Source: Rhodococcus sp. P1Y (GTDB lineage Bacteria > Actinomycetota > Actinomycetes > Mycobacteriales > Mycobacteriaceae). From it: a stretch of 64,000 nucleotides of DNA. Under the pieces are notes generated by a model that was not told the DNA's origin, did not search any database, and saw only the letters and a program-made list of their open reading frames with translations. Positions 12,232-47,563 of the stretch are shown here, one piece after another. Position numbers and translations under genes: made by a program. The stretch covers positions 5,166,001 to 5,230,000 of the forward strand of contig NZ_CP032762.1 of assembly GCF_003641205.1 (NCBI RefSeq), given 5' to 3'. Every line of letters begins with the position of its first letter. Positions within the stretch are counted from its first letter, which is position 1.

Positions 12232-13154
12232 TACTTACGGCCTCCGTCGTCCGAGCCCGGCGCCGAGGCACCGAACAGCTTGATGAACACGAACGCGATG
12301 ATGGCGACGCAGAAGAAGATCAGAACGCTGATCGCCGAGCCGAGTCCGAGATTGAATGCGCCGAACAGATTGTCGTAACCGAGGATCGACACCGAGCCGG
12401 TACCGTTGCTGCCCTTGGTCAACACGTAGATGTTGTCGAAGATGCGGAATGCGTCGAGGGTACGGAAGAGCACCGCGACGAGGATCGCAGGCTTCATCAG
12501 CGGAATCGTGATGCGTATCAACCTCGTCCACGCACCAGCCCCGTCGACCTGTGCCGCCTTCAGCAAATCGTCCGGCACGAGTGCGAGACCGGCGAGAAGC
12601 AGCAGCGCCATGAAGGGCGTCGTCTTCCACACTTCGGCGAGTACGACGATGGCGAGCGAGGGAATCTGCTCGGTCAGCGGCGCACTGCCGTCGGGAAGCA
12701 GGTTGGCGAGATATCCCGTGCCGGGTGTCCATGCGTAGTACCAGCTGTACGCCGCGGCGACGGTCACGATGCCGTACGGGATCAACACCACGGTGCGGAC
12801 GAGCCCACGTCCGAAGATGGTGCGGTGCATGATCAGTGCCACCACGAGACCGAGCACGAATTCGATGATGACCGAGATGATGGTGATGGCGGTCGTGACG
12901 CCGAAGGCCGTCCACCAGTACCCGTCGGAGAGAACCGTGACGTAGTTCGAGATGCCGACGAACTCACGGTCGTCCGGGAATGCCAGGTTGTACTTCTGCA
13001 GGCTGAGCCAGAAGGCATAGACGATGGGATAACCGGTGACGGCGAGCATCATGATCGCGGCGGGAGCGATCAGAAGCAGTCCGAGCCTTCGCTCGGCCTT
13101 CTTGCCGTCGGACACGTTCTTCAGGACTGCTTCTTTGTCCAGCGTTTCGCTCAT
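12231..13154 (-). CDS. sugA: Trehalose ABC transporter permease SugA
   Basis: 307-residue inner-membrane permease (MalF type), the same length as M. tuberculosis SugA as recalled. Six hydrophobic helices, with the EAA loop [20 protein letters not shown] near residues 205-225. ATG 13154 overlaps the lpqY stop (ATGA). The longer open frame upstream is antisense or inside lpqY and was rejected. Confidence 0.9.
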
Positions 13155-39019: not shown

Positions 39020-39973
39020 GTGAGCGCACAGGGAGCATCTGCAATCGGTCTGGCCAACATCACTACCGCTGGAGTCGTACTCGACACCTGGTACCCGAGC
39101 CCCGAGCTCGGCGAATACGCCGAGACCGGCACCACCCGACTCGAGGGCTCGGACATCCCTTCCGAGCTGGCCGAACTTGTCGGACCCGACACCGCCCGCG
39201 GCGTCGACGTCGTAGCCGTGCGCACCACGATCGCATCCATCGACGACGCCCCGATCGACGCGCACGACGTCTACTTGCGCCTGCACCTGCTCTCGCATCG
39301 GCTCGTCCAGCCACACGGGCTCAGCCTCGACGGTCAGTTCGGTTTCCTCGCCAACGTGGTCTGGACCAACTTCGGTCCCGCCGCGGTCGAAGGCTTCGAA
39401 ACCGTTCGAGCACGCCTGCGTGCCCGCGGCCACGTCACCGTGTATTCGGTCGACAAGTTTCCGAGGCTCGTCGACTACGTCGTCCCCTCCGGCGTCCGTA
39501 TCGCCGACGCCGACCGTGTGCGTCTCGGTGCGCACCTCGCCAGCGGCACCACCGTCATGCACGAGGGGTTCGTCAACTTCAACGCGGGCACTCTCGGCAA
39601 CTCGATGGTCGAAGGTCGCATCTCGGCCGGCGTGCTCGTCGGCGACGGCTCGGACGTCGGTGGCGGCGCCTCGATCATGGGCACTTTGTCCGGCGGCGGC
39701 AAGAACGTCATTTCTCTCGGCAAGAGTTGCCTCCTCGGCGCCAATTCCGGACTCGGCATCTCGCTCGGTGACGACTGCGTCGTCGAGGCAGGCCTCTACA
39801 TCACTGCAGGTACCAAGGTCACTGGGCCCGACGGAACGGTCGTCAAAGCAGCGACGCTCAGCGGTAAGAACAACCTGCTGTTCCGTCGTAACTCGGTGTC
39901 CGGCGCCGTCGAGGTAGTGCCGTGGAAGGGCACGGGCGTCGAACTGAACGCGGCCCTGCACGCCAACGACTGA
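39020..39973 (+). CDS. dapD: Tetrahydrodipicolinate N-succinyltransferase
   Basis: 317-residue acyltransferase of the actinobacterial DapD type, the length of the M. tuberculosis enzyme. It succinylates tetrahydrodipicolinate in DAP/lysine synthesis. The C-terminal half is a left-handed beta helix (GTTVMHEGFVNFNAGTLGNS, GGGASIMGTLSGGG, LLGANSGLGISLGDDCVVEAG). GTG 39020 fits the family N-terminus; the upstream open frame is antisense to the propeller gene. Confidence 0.93.
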   Translation: MSAQGASAIGLANITTAGVVLDTWYPSPELGEYAETGTTRLEGSDIPSELAELVGPDTARGVDVVAVRTTIASIDDAPIDAHDVYLRLHLLSHRLVQPHGLSLDGQFGFLANVVWTNFGPAAVEGFETVRARLRARGHVTVYSVDKFPRLVDYVVPSGVRIADADRVRLGAHLASGTTVMHEGFVNFNAGTLGNSMVEGRISAGVLVGDGSDVGGGASIMGTLSGGGKNVISLGKSCLLGANSGLGISLGDDCVVEAGLYITAGTKVTGPDGTVVKAATLSGKNNLLFRRNSVSGAVEVVPWKGTGVELNAALHAND

Positions 39974-40081
39974 CCCGAGTCGGGTATTATTCCCCAGCGC
40001 TTCCACCAGGAAGATTCCCGCAGCTTGACTCCTCGGCGCGGACGACTGCATTGAACCGTGATCAGTTCGGCGAGGGCGAAA

Positions 40082-40795
40082 ATGAGCGCGACGTTGGTAC
40101 TTGGAGCATGCGGTGGGGCCGGCACGACGACGGCAACGGCCGTTCTCGCAAATCTGTGGGCCCTTGATGGGGAGACCGCGGTGGCTGTGGATGCGACGGT
40201 CGGTGGCGGCGACTTGGTCGACCGAGCAGCCGATCACACCGTGTCCGCGTCGACGATCGAGACGGGGTTGGACGACGCTGCGATGTCGGCGTCGAGTTCG
40301 GGCGCCAGGGTGCTCGGTCGCTCCTGGCTCGATGCCGCCGAGCCGGACTTCGAGCGACTCGATTGGTACCTCGGTCATCGGGCCGACGTCTCGCTCTACG
40401 ATTTCGGCCATCGCGGTTTCGGTCGCTACGGCGCGCATCCCGTCGTCTCCGACCCGTCGGCGACGATTGTGCTCACCGTTCCCGCGCGGCCCGATGCATT
40501 CGGCCGCGCGAAGACTGCTCTGCAGACCATCTCATTGATCATCGGCGAACGGGCAGCGCGCCGCACCTCTGTCGTCGTCACGCACCAGCTACCAGGTGCA
40601 CCGGTGATCGACATCGCCGAGATGCGTCGCAAACTGGCCGGCCGAGCTCGCGCCGTCGACGAGATCCCGTACGACCCTCACCTCGGGACTGGCCTGGCGA
40701 TCACCGCGTCCGAGCTGGCACCGGATACCACCCGCGCGTACGAGCGAGTGCGAGCTCGGTGCGGTTCCGAGGCTTCGGGCACACTGTCGGCGTGA
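40082..40795 (+). CDS. MinD/ParA-like ATPase with altered P-loop
   Basis: 237-residue protein of the MinD/ParA fold. The P-loop reads GACGGAGTTTATA (residues 8-20), where the usual KGGxGKTT has lost both lysines. AVAVDATVGGGDLVDRA, LYDFGHRG and IVLTVPARPDAF match the following strands. Similar lysine-less loops occur in septum-site (Ssd-like) proteins of actinobacteria. ATG 40082 is the start with homology; a longer frame begins at 40058. It overlaps the P450 gene by GTGA, so the genes are coupled. Role unknown. Confidence 0.75.
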   Translation: MSATLVLGACGGAGTTTATAVLANLWALDGETAVAVDATVGGGDLVDRAADHTVSASTIETGLDDAAMSASSSGARVLGRSWLDAAEPDFERLDWYLGHRADVSLYDFGHRGFGRYGAHPVVSDPSATIVLTVPARPDAFGRAKTALQTISLIIGERAARRTSVVVTHQLPGAPVIDIAEMRRKLAGRARAVDEIPYDPHLGTGLAITASELAPDTTRAYERVRARCGSEASGTLSA

Positions 40796-42141
40796 CGATA
40801 CCGACTCCTCGTTTCCGCTTGCCCGTCCTCGGCGACGTCCTGAGCATCGACGCGGACAAACCGACTCAGCGCGAGCTGCGGATGGCCGCCGAACTCGGAC
40901 CGATCTTCGAACGGAAGATCCTGAAGCACCGGCTCGTCGTCGTCAGCGGTGCAGACCTCGTGGCCGAGTTGAACGACGAAACGCGGTTCGCGAAGTTTCT
41001 GGCGTTACCGCACCGAAAGCTTCGCGCGCTCGGTGGTGACGGCCTGTTCACAGCGTTCAACTCCGAACCGAACTGGGGAGCAGCACACCGCATCCTGATG
41101 CCCGGCTTCAGCCGGGACGCCATGCGTACGTACCACCGGGTGATGACCGAGGTCGCCGCCGAACTCGTCGAGCACTGGGGCCGTCGGCCGAACACGTCGA
41201 TCGACGTCACTGCAGACCTGAACAAGTTGACGCTCGAGAACATGGCACGAGCAGGCTTCGGATACAGCTTCGATGCGTTCGTTTCCAAGGATGACGAGTT
41301 CGTGGCCGCAATCGTGCGCATTCTCGGATTCGTCAACCGTACGTCCAACGATCTGCCGTTCATGCGGGTGTTCCGCCGCGGCGAGAGCGCGCGCAACGAA
41401 CGCGACATCGCGTACGTGCACGGAGTTGTCGACGACGTGATCGAGCGCCGGTTGCACAATCCGGACACCCGCCACGACGATCTGCTCGACCTGATGCTGC
41501 ACACCCCGGATCCGGAGACCGGCGAGACACTCGACCGAATCAACATTCGCCATCAGGTACTCACCTTCCTCGTAGCGGGCAACGAGACAACGGCGGGCAC
41601 GCTCGCATTTGCGCTGTACTTTCTCGCGACGCACCCGGATGTGGCCGCGAAAGTCCGAGCCGAGGTCGACTCGGCTGTGGATCCAATCTCGTTCGAAGGC
41701 GTCTCGAAGCTGCGCTACACCCGAAGCGTCGTGGACGAGACGCTGAGGCTGTGGCCGTCGGCGCCCGGCTACTTCAGAAAAGCGCGTGAAGACACCTCCA
41801 TCGGCGACGGCCAGTACTCGATGAAGGCAGGAGAATGGGCGTTTGTTCTCACTCTCGGTGTCCACCGCGATCCGGTCTGGGGTCCCGACCCGGAACGATT
41901 CGATCCCGATCGATTCTCTTCCGAACGCGCCAAATCCCGGCCCGCACAGGCATATCGTCCGTTCGGCACCGGGATGAGAGGGTGCATCGGACGTCAATTC
42001 GCGCTGCACGAGTCCGTCCTGACCCTCGCTGAGCTGACACGCGCGTTCGAGTTCGAACTCGAGGATGGGTACGAGCTGGATGTGCAGGAATCACTCACAC
42101 TCAAACCACAGAACATGCGCATGACAGTGCGTTCGAGGTGA
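40792..42141 (+). CDS. Cytochrome P450, CYP102 (BM3 haem domain)-like
   Basis: 449-residue monooxygenase. I-helix motif AGNETTAG, K-helix ETLR, and the haem loop PFGTGMRGCIGRQFALHE with the axial Cys near residue 398. The end of the protein (ELDVQESLTLKP) strongly resembles the P450 BM3 haem domain, which hydroxylates fatty acids. Unlike BM3 it stops right after this region, with no fused reductase, so it needs separate redox partners. GTG 40792 overlaps the upstream gene; the stop overlaps the next gene by GTGA. Confidence 0.9.
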   Translation: MTIPTPRFRLPVLGDVLSIDADKPTQRELRMAAELGPIFERKILKHRLVVVSGADLVAELNDETRFAKFLALPHRKLRALGGDGLFTAFNSEPNWGAAHRILMPGFSRDAMRTYHRVMTEVAAELVEHWGRRPNTSIDVTADLNKLTLENMARAGFGYSFDAFVSKDDEFVAAIVRILGFVNRTSNDLPFMRVFRRGESARNERDIAYVHGVVDDVIERRLHNPDTRHDDLLDLMLHTPDPETGETLDRINIRHQVLTFLVAGNETTAGTLAFALYFLATHPDVAAKVRAEVDSAVDPISFEGVSKLRYTRSVVDETLRLWPSAPGYFRKAREDTSIGDGQYSMKAGEWAFVLTLGVHRDPVWGPDPERFDPDRFSSERAKSRPAQAYRPFGTGMRGCIGRQFALHESVLTLAELTRAFEFELEDGYELDVQESLTLKPQNMRMTVRSR

Positions 42142-43151
42142 CTCCTCCGAGCGCCGAATGGACGCTGATCGAAACACTCATGCCGGGCGAGATGAACGTG
42201 GTCGCAAAGGGTGGCCATCCGCGCAGTCTGCGCGAATCCCTGTCCCTGCAACGCTTGTCGCCCGACCCAAGGATCGCGGTCGAGCCCTTTCTCGTCCGTG
42301 CCCTCACTGCCGGTCGGCGATACGAAGAGCAGACCGAAATTCGCAGTCGCGCCGGCTCGACGACGTTCCGACTTCTGGCCGAGCCGGTGATGGGTCCCAC
42401 CGGCGCCGTGCACGCGCTTCAGCTGTGGATTGCCCCGACCGACCGTGATGTGAGTCCGCCCCGACGTGCATCAGGGGTGAGTTGGCTACTCCACAAGGGT
42501 GTCATCGCACAAACCCTCGAAGCGTCGATGATGTCCGGCGTCGAACCCACCGATCACGTTCCCGAGCGAACTCCCGCCGAGTACTACGCCAAATCCATCC
42601 GGTTCGACGACACGGAAGGTCTGTTCGCGCTGTGCTTGGCGCCGTCGGAGGGCGACAGTTGGGAAGGTTCCTTCTCGGTCTTGCACGCCGACGGTCGAGT
42701 AATGCGGTGGCATTGCCACGCGCGCGCATGCCTCGAACCGGAAGAGGTCGGCGTCCGGGTTCTGTGGCACGACGTCACCGACACAGTCGCACCGGACCGA
42801 CCGATTCTCGACGTACTGGCGCGTCGGCGGGGAATGGACGCACGCGGAATCTTCGCTGCGCTTCTCGTTCCGAGGCAGGGCTACCTCGCGATGTGGCTCA
42901 GTGATACGCCTGCACCGTGGGTGCGGTGGCGCGATGTCTCCTCCGGGGACGATGTGTTCCATCCCGACGATCTCGCCGTCATTTCGGACTCGCACAGACG
43001 CTTGCTCGAGGGCGGTGACCACGAGGAAGTCACCGTCAGGACACGGGGGTCAGAGGGCACCGAGGAGTGGGTAGCGACGCGCATGCGCATCTCGACCTAC
43101 CCCGGTGACCTGGGTGAACACCTCGCGGTAGTCGACATGTATCGGGACTAA
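42138..43151 (+). CDS. PAS-like sensor protein without output domain
   Basis: 337-residue soluble protein. Two or three PAS-like repeats can be seen: [20 protein letters not shown] ending LWHDVTDTV (about 180-225), and [20 protein letters not shown] followed by [11 protein letters not shown] (about 275-325). The N-terminal 110 residues may be a third related domain. No kinase, GGDEF or DNA-binding domain follows. GTG 42138 overlaps the P450 stop, so it is co-translated with the ATPase and P450. May sense a ligand or product of the P450; that is inference. Confidence 0.7.
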
Positions 43152-43585
43152 CCGATCGACCTCAAAGATTCGAGGGTGCGCACCACTGCACGAGCCGCCT
43201 CGACACCCTTCTTCTCGAGATGATTGGAGAAGAACTCGCTGTGGTCGGAGTGTTCGTGGAAGTGATGCGGAGTCAGCACTACCGAGAAGACCGGAACGTC
43301 GGTGTCCAACTGAACACGCATGAGACCGTCGATGACGGCGGTCTCGACGAACTCGTGACGGTAGATCCCGCCGTCCACGACGAGAGCGGCCGCAACGATC
43401 GCGGCGTACTTGCCTGTTCGCGCCAAGCGCTGCGCATGCAGAGGGATCTCGAACGCCCCCGGCACTTCGAACGTTTCGACTTCGCCGCCGAATTCGGCTA
43501 CGAATCCTTGCCGTGCACGGTCGACCAGATCTTTGTGCCAGGTGGCTTGAACGAACGCTACTGTTCCGGGCATGTCGTTGGTCAT
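43148..43585 (-). CDS. 6,7-dimethyl-8-ribityllumazine synthase, type II (RibH2-like)
   Basis: 145-residue lumazine synthase family protein catalysing the penultimate step of riboflavin synthesis. [18 protein letters not shown] at the start and [15 protein letters not shown] with the substrate pocket resemble the decameric type II (Brucella RibH2) enzymes. The catalytic His region HHFHEH is present. No other rib gene is nearby, so this may be a stress- or light-linked duplicate. It converges with the PAS gene (4-base overlap). Confidence 0.87.
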
Positions 43586-46477: not shown

Positions 46478-47563
46478 TTATTCGGGGCCCCTCGGATCCA
46501 CCGGCATCGCCAAGGTCGTGAGATCTCCGTCGTCCGCGGACCTGACCACCACCGGCGCCGTCGGACCGCTGATGTCGATCATCACGTCCGGCCCGACAGC
46601 CGATGCGACCGCCGGGTACAGAGTCGTCATGGCGAAGGTGATCACGACATCCGGGCCCGTGACCGTTGTCGGGATGTCGGCGAACTCGGAGGAGTCCGGC
46701 TCGGACAACCGAATACGACCGTGTCCGGTCGCGACGGCCCATCGCTCGAACCGACCGTCTTCCATAACCCGCTGCAGTGACCGCTTGGACACGACGACTC
46801 GCGTCACCGCCACGGGCAACGAATCCAGCATGCTTCGATAGTCGGGAAACTCCTCGTTCAGCCTTCGGCAGTGCCGGCCTCCCGGACCGAAGACGATGCC
46901 CGAGTCGTCGAGATTCACGGCGACGACGTGTTCCCGGCGAACGTCCGGCATCGCGGCGCGCAGATCGTCACCGTCGATCACAGCATTCCATGGCGTCGAA
47001 TCCGAATGTGCCACAACGACAGTGCGGGTGGACAGCCTGTACCTGTCGGTCGCAGTCACAGTCAAGACGTCGCCTCGTGCCTCCACATGGACACCGCTGA
47101 GAACTGGAAATTCGGGGTGATGCGCTGTTGCGGTGAGGATTTGGTCGACTGCGTCCGCGAAGATCGGTCCGCTCACTGAGATCACGATGCACTTCCTGTC
47201 CATGTAGTCGTTCGGGTAGTTGCTGTCTGGGTGAAGGGTTGCTCGAATTTCGGCGGCGGAGCGACGGGCTCGGTTCGCAATGCCGTCCAGATGCGCGACA
47301 TGCCGGTCGATGTGTGTGGCATCGCCGGCGAGAACGAGCGCGATCTGCTCGAGTGGCATGTCCATATGGCGTAAACGGCGAACCGTCGTCGCCTGGTCGA
47401 TCTGATCGGGTGCGTAATAACGGTAACCGGTCGATCCGTCTATCCGGGCAGGTACCAGCAGTGCCGCGTCCGCATAGAAGCGGAGCGCTCCAGGGGTCAG
47501 TCCGGTCGCACGAGCAAACGCGCCGATGGTCATGAGTTCTGGTGTGGTCACGAGATTCATCAT
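46478..47563 (-). CDS. MerR regulator fused to a DNA polymerase III beta-clamp-like region
   Basis: About 361 residues. Residues ~11-80 form a MerR helix-turn-helix: MTIGAFARATGLTPGALRFY, then RIDGSTGYRYY and LRHMDMPLEQIALVL. After a linker the C-terminal ~230 residues resemble sliding clamp (DnaN) domains, with VTATDRYRLSTRTVVV, GRHCRRLNEEFPDYRSML and RVVVSKRSLQRVM. Start is uncertain among 47563, 47560, 47551 and 47533. Clamp fusions to MerR domains are known in actinobacteria from annotation, but I know no function. It may bind DNA as a regulator with a ligand-binding clamp fold. Confidence 0.75.
   Translation of the reverse strand: MMNLVTTPELMTIGAFARATGLTPGALRFYADAALLVPARIDGSTGYRYYAPDQIDQATTVRRLRHMDMPLEQIALVLAGDATHIDRHVAHLDGIANRARRSAAEIRATLHPDSNYPNDYMDRKCIVISVSGPIFADAVDQILTATAHHPEFPVLSGVHVEARGDVLTVTATDRYRLSTRTVVVAHSDSTPWNAVIDGDDLRAAMPDVRREHVVAVNLDDSGIVFGPGGRHCRRLNEEFPDYRSMLDSLPVAVTRVVVSKRSLQRVMEDGRFERWAVATGHGRIRLSEPDSSEFADIPTTVTGPDVVITFAMTTLYPAVASAVGPDVMIDISGPTAPVVVRSADDGDLTTLAMPVDPRGPE

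Follow-up and report, generated by a model that had tools for sequence, protein, structure and literature searches.

Introduction

In the gamma-butyrolactone-type systems of Streptomyces, oxidoreductase genes lie next to the gene for a ligand receptor, which is a DNA binder of the TetR type. A structure has been solved for the sensor-type family of Rv3651-like proteins, for which, to our knowledge, neither a ligand nor a partner is known. Some Streptomyces conservons contain an accessory cytochrome P450 (CvnE) or GAF protein (CvnF), which are proposed as sensory inputs (PMC13343842). Here we analyze a group of three genes, the trio, in a 64,000-nucleotide stretch of the Rhodococcus sp. P1Y chromosome (the window; NZ_CP032762.1, 5,166,001 to 5,230,000). 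The trio encodes a MinD/ParA-like protein (MinD-like), a CYP102-type cytochrome P450 and an Rv3651-like protein (the sensor), and sits between dapD and the lumazine synthase gene ribH. We found that it is the P450 and the sensor that are conserved together as a unit. This two-gene cassette is widespread and linked to plasmids and conjugation, and the trio is its narrowly distributed version on the chromosome. The original prediction, made from the DNA letters of the window, had likened the three genes to the conservons; as an analogy this is apt, in that CvnE and CvnF are accessories with a proposed sensory role.

The P450 and the sensor form a recurrent, co-inherited pair

Relatives of the sensor are found by tblastn in 62 plasmid records, comprising 51 from Rhodococcus, six from Gordonia, four from Nocardia and one from Tsukamurella. 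Our listing covers 60 of these 62 records and, for the P450, 60 of 100. At least 40 of the 60 listed sensor records have a CYP102-like P450 gene in the same orientation that lies 66-125 nt upstream; seven more P450-sensor records were identified by annotation and two more (NZ_CP108042 and NZ_CP108384) via loci L094 and L201 (L, locus; G, genome). Altogether, a P450 gene lies just upstream of the sensor gene in 49 of the 60, in Rhodococcus, Nocardia and Gordonia, several of the 60 records being near-copies of one another. Among the rest we found one P450 gene broken by an IS3 element, one metallo-beta-lactamase (MBL)-fold gene and one short-chain dehydrogenase/reductase (SDR) gene located downstream; NZ_CP108044, NZ_CP015221, NZ_CP046321 and CP094666 are left out of this breakdown. 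Across the family, the sensor profile matches (E ≤ 1e-25) in 82 of 401 genomes and 10 of 31 genera. No report of a P450-Rv3651-like pairing was found in open-licence PMC papers.

Fourteen duplicate loci were dropped before trees and counts, leaving 29 P450-sensor pairs besides that of the window. Trees were calculated after exclusion of P450 rows shorter than 350 aa and of sensor rows of 180 aa or less. The label "paired" requires four changes on the P450 tree, against 17.4 when shuffled, and likewise four on the sensor tree, against 16.5. Copies from the dapD site form one clade on both trees (100/100 each), and that of the sensor nests among the sensors that belong to pairs (96/88 and 99/96). 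Distances among the P450s are correlated with those among the sensors (r = 0.91 for 16 divergent pairs including the window; 0 of 2000 permutations), and the two genes have therefore been inherited as a unit, although the correlation ignores host kinship and any co-inherited neighbours would show it. A four-nucleotide P450/sensor overlap is also present outside the genus, in Gordonia pCP86 (12913-12916) and on the chromosome of another genus (L191). The association of P450 and sensor in the original prediction thus proved to be that of a recurrent, co-inherited pair, and we hold the recurrence to be firm; a neighbourhood search found the pair to be widespread and the full trio to be rare, occurring in 7 of the 37 genomes of the genus.

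Regulators or conjugation genes often lie near the pair outside the dapD site

We inspected the surroundings of 23 pairs located away from dapD. A cutinase-like gene lies within 10 kb of 15 of them and an XRE gene alone near two, in a set where several stretches are short and the loci overlap with the plasmid listing. In one locus (L099), the pair is found near an XRE-type regulator, followed by an operon that codes for cutinase, a MinD-like protein, DUF6668, SCO6880, a VirB4-like ATPase, an M23 endopeptidase (by annotation) and VirD4, and thus combines cutinase with type IV secretion system (T4SS) genes. The VirD4-type (PF12696, PF02534), SCO6880, cutinase and DUF6668 products score over their cut-offs, and the VirB4-like product is just at that of PF19044. 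The transfer of one Rhodococcus plasmid is reported to be promoted by a cutinase (cited in PMC6794481). All three trio genes have relatives near one another on some plasmids, in a different order: the plasmids read P450-sensor-...-MinD, the trio MinD-P450-sensor. Derivation of the trio by simple deletion from such a plasmid was rejected, as the gene orders differ. Plasmid pREC1 contains a P450, a FabG and a MinD-like gene, and no Rv3651-like protein was recognised there. The plasmid/T4SS connection of the cassette was absent from the original prediction, whose interpretation as a whole is supported in part.

Sensor-type genes also lie next to other enzymes. An SDR gene is found beside the Rv3651-like gene in NZ_CP130955, at the plasmid position between the XRE/cutinase and partition sides, and downstream of the Rv3651-like gene in Tsukamurella, where the stretch contains neither XRE nor cutinase. 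In pGKT1, an MBL-fold hydrolase gene adjoins the Rv3651-like gene, and in pGBRO01 an amidohydrolase gene lies upstream of the P450 gene of the pair. In two genomes of genus g8, the pair immediately precedes sigM (250.8 and 245.4 bits; cut-off 190), an arrangement that suggests control of, or by, SigM. These chromosomal loci span L190:6259-10436 and L191:6819-9898; on the far side of its pair, L190 has a weakly anti-sigma-like gene, which is followed by a thioredoxin reductase gene.

The trio is confined to the dapD-ribH site

The features of the locus are collected in Table 1. Seven of the 37 genus genomes contain the full trio (G000, G006, G007, G010, G018, G026 and G036; in G018 a contig break splits it), and in each case dapD and ribH are its borders. 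Three further sites are partial, with MinD-like and P450 genes in G004, P450 and sensor genes in G031, and the sensor gene with an 89-codon P450 remnant in G034. The dapD locus was read in 30 of the 37 genomes: 10 have the trio or parts of it, in six dapD is directly followed by the lumazine synthase gene, and the other 14 show neither trio parts nor lumazine synthase within the 0.3-1.5 kb available. Named carriers include Rhodococcus/Rhodococcoides yunnanensis and kyotonense, several Rhodococcus sp. and Rhodococcus sovatensis.

Table 1. Features of the trio and its borders in the window
Feature	Position	Strand	Remark
dapD, left border of accessory insertion	39020..39973	+	TIGR03535
Leader between dapD and trio; inverted repeat 40000-40013, TTGACT 40025-40030	39974..40081	+	Alignment
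MinD/ParA-like P-loop protein without Walker-A lysines, 237 aa	40082..40795	+	Homologue in some plasmid T4SS operons
Degenerate Walker A, residues 10-17, CGGAGTTT	40109..40132	+	DNA read and alignment
GTGA start/stop overlap, MinD-like/P450	40792..40795	+	DNA read
CYP102-type cytochrome P450, 449 aa, no reductase domain, GTG start	40792..42141	+	PF00067, 274.4 bits
Haem-ligating cysteine codon, C398 in FGTGMRGCIG	41983..41985	+	Aligned with BM3 haem-binding motif
GTGA start/stop overlap, P450/sensor	42138..42141	+	DNA read
Rv3651-like sensor-type protein (GAF/PAS-type), 337 aa, GTG start, no output domain found	42138..43151	+	
ribH-type lumazine synthase, right border, convergent, ends overlap by 4 nt	43148..43585	-	NF009084

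The original prediction had described the three genes as joined by GTGA at both junctions, and the open reading frames and the DNA confirm this. The first junction reads GTGA in all eight loci that have both genes, and the second reads NTGA in all eight readable loci, where N is A, G or T and provides a possible start codon for the sensor frame; G018, which has its contig break there, and G034, with its P450 remnant, are excluded from the latter count. The P450 start agrees with the family, as the alignment to CYP102L1 opens at residue 3. Seven other same-strand neighbours in the gene calls of the window overlap by 4 nt, and the overlap is by itself thus ordinary; its candidacy as a special sign was rejected. 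All three genes are under purifying selection, with ratios of nonsynonymous to synonymous substitution rates (dN/dS) of 0.07-0.30 in four pairwise comparisons (MinD-like, 0.19-0.30; P450, 0.07-0.09; sensor, 0.11-0.18; flanking dapD and lumazine synthase, 0.06-0.10), values that are rough at a dS of about 0.8-1.6 for the trio genes, near or above 1. The MinD-like gene is thus the fastest evolving of the three, though constrained. Order and overlaps support the compact, operon-like group of the original prediction, and the trio probably is one operon.

The 108-nt leader is conserved in the eight loci that keep the MinD-like gene, and a different leader is present in the two that lost it. It contains an inverted repeat, recognised by eye, which could be an operator or an RNA hairpin. 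In G036 both arms are changed and still pair (CTTCC/GGAAG; CTCCC/GGGAG in the window), and in some other loci one arm alone differs. A consensus scan detected no sigma-70-type promoter for the trio (0 hits; 0.3 expected). No T4SS, relaxase or coupling protein gene was found beside the trio, the flanking genes being dapE, SGL, dapD, ribH, DUF1810 and OAHS. In G010, a gene absent from the window, by eye an IS110-type transposase gene (L079:12852-14072), interrupts the conserved order beside the trio. Elsewhere in the window, positions 46478-47563 of the minus strand encode what by eye is a MerR-type DNA-binding domain joined to a DNA polymerase sliding-clamp-like part.

The P450 and its candidate ligands

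We compared the window P450 to chains of known structure. The best match is CYP102L1 (PDB 6n6q; 422 bits, E 1.9e-125), with BM3 at about 336 bits. The haem cysteine, ExxR and I-helix AGxET motifs are all conserved in the alignment, as is a phenylalanine aligned with Phe-87 of BM3. Profile, motifs and top similarity together place the protein in the CYP102 family. A fused reductase of the cytochrome P450 reductase type, as found in BM3, is absent, and the original prediction was correct in describing a BM3-like P450 that ends (at 42141) without one. This is the rule in the genus: of the 63 P450 matches listed across the 37 genomes, 61 have an open frame that does not exceed 859 codons, and only two frames (1093 and 1142 codons, in G010 and G001) could accommodate a fused reductase; reductase loss was consequently rejected as a remarkable feature, free-standing P450 genes being usual here. 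The original prediction had further suggested lipid oxidation, with fatty acids as the substrates to try. Arg-47 and Tyr-51 of BM3, which we take to be its carboxylate anchors, correspond to His and Val in the window P450 and are not kept in CYP102L1 either, and a fatty acid substrate is therefore not implied.

All 37 genus genomes contain a CYP102-like P450 elsewhere as well, and none of ten such loci that we read includes a sensor gene. Seven of the ten form a clade of their own together with two mycobacterial-type rows, with TetR and DUF2277 neighbours by eye, and three (L208, L209 and L211) belong to a separate XRE/DUF6545-type cassette. This second cassette type is located near cutinase-type genes at L125:4106-9127 and L209:3332-8039, with parts in L208 and L211. 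It consists of XRE, three small proteins, DUF6545 (MAB_1171c family) and a CYP102-like P450, and contains no Rv3651-like sensor.

The sensor is an Rv3651-like protein

The third protein matches Pfam Rv3651-like_N (PF18007; 45.8 bits, cut-off 25) and PAS_3 (38.6 bits, cut-off 25.6), while PF18621 (14.4 bits) and Rv3651-like_C (PF21043; 23.1 bits) each stay under the cut-off of 31.1. A plasmid relative in L099 passes PF21043 with 34.9 bits. Similarity extends over the full length, as a 32-sequence sensor profile matches PDB entry 4q6u, which we take to be Rv3651, at positions 3-313 of 333 (E 3.9e-25). An AlphaFold2 model, built from 32 of 39 sequences (the window protein and 38 relatives), has a pLDDT of 84.5 and a pTM of 0.79. 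By sequence, the protein is a member of the Rv3651-like family. The original prediction had called it PAS-like with no output domain; the PAS match and the lack of an output domain in the Pfam scan both stand, and the description was incomplete in omitting the Rv3651-like family. Relatives are annotated in their source records as "GAF domain-containing protein", "DUF5593 domain-containing protein" or hypothetical. Judging by title, none of the open-licence PMC papers listed for Rv3651 deals with its function, and Rv3651 itself presumably has no P450 neighbour.

The MinD-like protein lacks the Walker-A lysines

The canonical ParA/MinD Walker A pattern is KGGxGK[T/S]. The window protein instead reads CGGAGTTT, in which both the signature lysine and the P-loop lysine of the deviant Walker A of MinD/ParA ATPases are absent. 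The lysines are also missing from the T4SS-operon homologues displayed in our alignment, where two true ParA/MinD-type rows show KGGVGK[ST]T. No Pfam family matches the protein at E 0.1, and its best NCBIfam score is 16.9 bits at a cut-off of 157.85; sequence kinship to the MinD/ParA class is thus weak. The designation "MinD-like ATPase" in the original prediction is consequently weakly supported, with the label "ATPase" unsupported because both lysines are lacking. Its role as an essential ATPase or localiser fared no better, since, in addition, two of the ten occupied sites lack the gene and it accompanies only 5 of the 23 pairs elsewhere.

MinD-like profile matches (E ≤ 1e-25) occur in 105 of the 401 family genomes and 11 of 31 genera, and a P450 gene adjoining the MinD-like gene was seen at the dapD site only. 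In a tree calculated without rows of 150 aa or less and without the G036 copy, which the gene finder had missed, the trio protein groups with Rhodococcus T4SS-operon homologues at moderate support (80/89). Matches by tblastn come from 14 plasmid records with 30-46% identity, and relatives are also found in T4SS-like operons on chromosomes of genus g22 (Nocardia). In seven loci of that genus (L178-L184), the MinD-like/cutinase/SCO6880 operon is located elsewhere in the chromosome than the Rv3651-like gene with its VirB4-like operon. In two mycobacterial-type genomes (L205:3130-8347 and L206:3198-8167), no more than about 3 kb separates a CYP102-like P450 from an insol/aeH1/MinD-like group, which is related to the pREC1 T4SS operon; no T4SS genes were called in those stretches.

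A possible small-molecule switch and the alternatives to it

An enzyme and a sensor lacking a recognisable output domain, placed beside varied regulators, resemble a small-molecule input module. We thus tentatively regard the P450 and the Rv3651-like protein as a two-gene signaling cassette, a reading to which we give nearly even prospects. Here, the P450 would oxidise a small hydrophobic molecule, either produced by the cell itself or imported, and the sensor, with its ligand-binding-type folds, would bind the substrate or product and pass its state on by touching another protein. We infer that this partner is a neighbouring regulator. On conjugative-type plasmids it would likely be the XRE-type regulator nearby, and the molecule would thereby switch transfer on or off; in genus g8 it would likely be SigM; and at the dapD-ribH site the co-encoded partner would be the lysine-less MinD-like protein, whose closest relatives off the site belong to T4SS operons. 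The chromosomal trio would then have a related, non-conjugative role. The genetic findings are secure; what the MinD-like protein does, and which ligand and output the cassette has, we infer in the same way.

Several observations weigh against a signaling cassette linked to conjugation. The scan of the trio flanks with Pfam and NCBIfam found no XRE, T4SS or sigma factor gene, six of the 23 pairs off the dapD site have neither an XRE nor a cutinase neighbour, and the anti-sigma-like neighbour of the pair at sigM falls below its cut-off (42.6 against 100 bits). The sensor gene is not always accompanied by a P450: 4 of the 60 listed plasmid records have no co-directional enzyme gene alongside, the Nocardia chromosomes of genus g22 carry it without a P450 beside a VirB4-like operon (L178-L184), and the second sensor copy of the window genome (L096) also lacks a P450. 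The deep forks of the P450 tree are without resolution, the distance correlation carries the caveat given above, and conservation is lacking at the P450 residues that would indicate free fatty acids. Individual trio genes have also been lost at the dapD site, namely the sensor (G004), the MinD-like gene (G031) and the MinD-like gene with most of the P450 (G034). The MinD-like gene is thus dispensable there and is rare beside the pair elsewhere, being located in the same stretch as 5 of the 23 pairs (L099, L100, L103, L201 and L202); just 4 of its 14 plasmid records are among the 60 listed for the sensor, and relatives occur in chromosomes without a T4SS or P450 (L186-L189, L199, L200, L204 and L207).

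Alternatively, the pair could be a metabolic cassette without any signaling, in which the P450 would serve to dispose of a hydrophobic compound or to recycle it, be it a lipid, an envelope component or a xenobiotic, and the sensor would do no more than stabilise or gate this enzyme or the electron supply to it. This would be in line with the lack of an output domain, with a strongly constrained P450 (dN/dS 0.07-0.09) that keeps its haem, I-helix and ExxR motifs, and with the fact that several of the host plasmids originate from waste or polluted soil. A protein that only assists the P450 would not, however, explain why members of the sensor family lie beside an SDR, an MBL or no enzyme, and beside XRE, sigM and T4SS genes, and we regard a purely metabolic cassette as rather unlikely. 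It is less likely still that the trio is the leftover of an integrated plasmid or integrative and conjugative element, with no function common to its three products. The matches of its parts to plasmid genes, the clean empty dapD-ribH site in six genomes and the piecemeal losses in three would all be expected of a relic. Yet dN/dS stays at 0.07-0.30 across genomes with a dS of about 0.8-1.6, the start/stop overlaps are kept at all readable junctions and the leader is conserved; the gene order, moreover, is unlike that of the plasmids read, and the trio is therefore not a simple remnant.

Another alternative, after the localiser of the original prediction, would make the MinD-like protein an active ATPase that positions a P450-sensor complex at the pole or envelope. 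Its weak kinship to the MinD/ParA class and the constant order MinD-P450-sensor in the seven full-trio genomes speak for such a localiser, which is nevertheless very unlikely, as the Walker-A lysines kept by the two ParA/MinD-type rows are gone from the trio protein and its T4SS-operon relatives, and the gene is missing at two of ten occupied sites and from most pairs elsewhere. Equally hard to credit, if not slightly more so, is a conservon-type input, in which the P450 and a GAF-like protein would feed a histidine kinase/roadblock/G-protein system in the manner of CvnE and CvnF. No product of the CvnA-D type is named in the annotated plasmid stretches, where many products are "hypothetical", or found among nine scanned window genes, and CvnF has, by its description, a single GAF domain, in contrast to the trio sensor, which matches the Rv3651 chain over 3-313. 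Membership in the conservons (AGPS) was rejected, as the CvnA-D core is present neither in the three-gene group nor in the nine scanned genes.

Returning to the two-gene signaling cassette, the P450-sensor pairing may represent an unrecognised chemical-signal switch. We further envisage, as a speculative extension with a modest chance of being right, a new chemical control of DNA transfer in Mycobacteriales that would comprise an enzyme, an Rv3651-like sensor, an XRE repressor and the cutinase/T4SS operon. Interchangeable enzymes (CYP102-type P450, SDR or MBL-fold hydrolase) would make or destroy an oxidised, lipid-like signal, the sensor would read it, and the XRE repressor would open or shut the operon; the cassette would perhaps have been captured at three or more chromosomal sites (dapD-ribH, next to sigM and others) for envelope functions. 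If true, this would provide a first function for the orphan Rv3651 family, and the frequent enzyme partner next door narrows the search for Rv3651-like ligands to what the P450 binds. It also raises the question of whether mycolic-acid bacteria adjust plasmid transfer in response to a small molecule, and because many plasmids of Rhodococcus, Nocardia and Gordonia have the cassette close to a conjugation operon, such a response is directly testable.

Comparison with known systems

The P450 shares with BM3 the haem, ExxR and AGxET motifs and the Phe-87-aligned phenylalanine, and differs from it in the missing fused reductase and in the His/Val pair at the Arg-47/Tyr-51 positions. The sensor resembles other Rv3651-like proteins in its N-terminal Pfam match over cut-off, its 4q6u match over 3-313 and the lack of a detected output domain, and differs in that its middle and C-terminal models are sub-cut-off and that its gene is grouped, operon-like, with a P450 gene. 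Of the plasmid T4SS/cutinase operons of Nocardiaceae (for example those of pREC1 and the L099 plasmid), some encode MinD-like homologues and adjoin the cassette (L099 and L103), whereas the trio is without transfer genes and has a different gene order. In the conservons, either CvnE or CvnF is the proposed input, whereas here a P450 and an Rv3651-like sensor occur together; the window lacks the CvnA-D core, and the neighbours of the cassette are XRE/T4SS genes, sigM or the MinD-like gene. The gamma-butyrolactone pairs may offer a further parallel in placing an enzyme gene beside a sensor gene, with the difference that no DNA-binding domain was found in the trio sensor, which would act through a partner protein instead.

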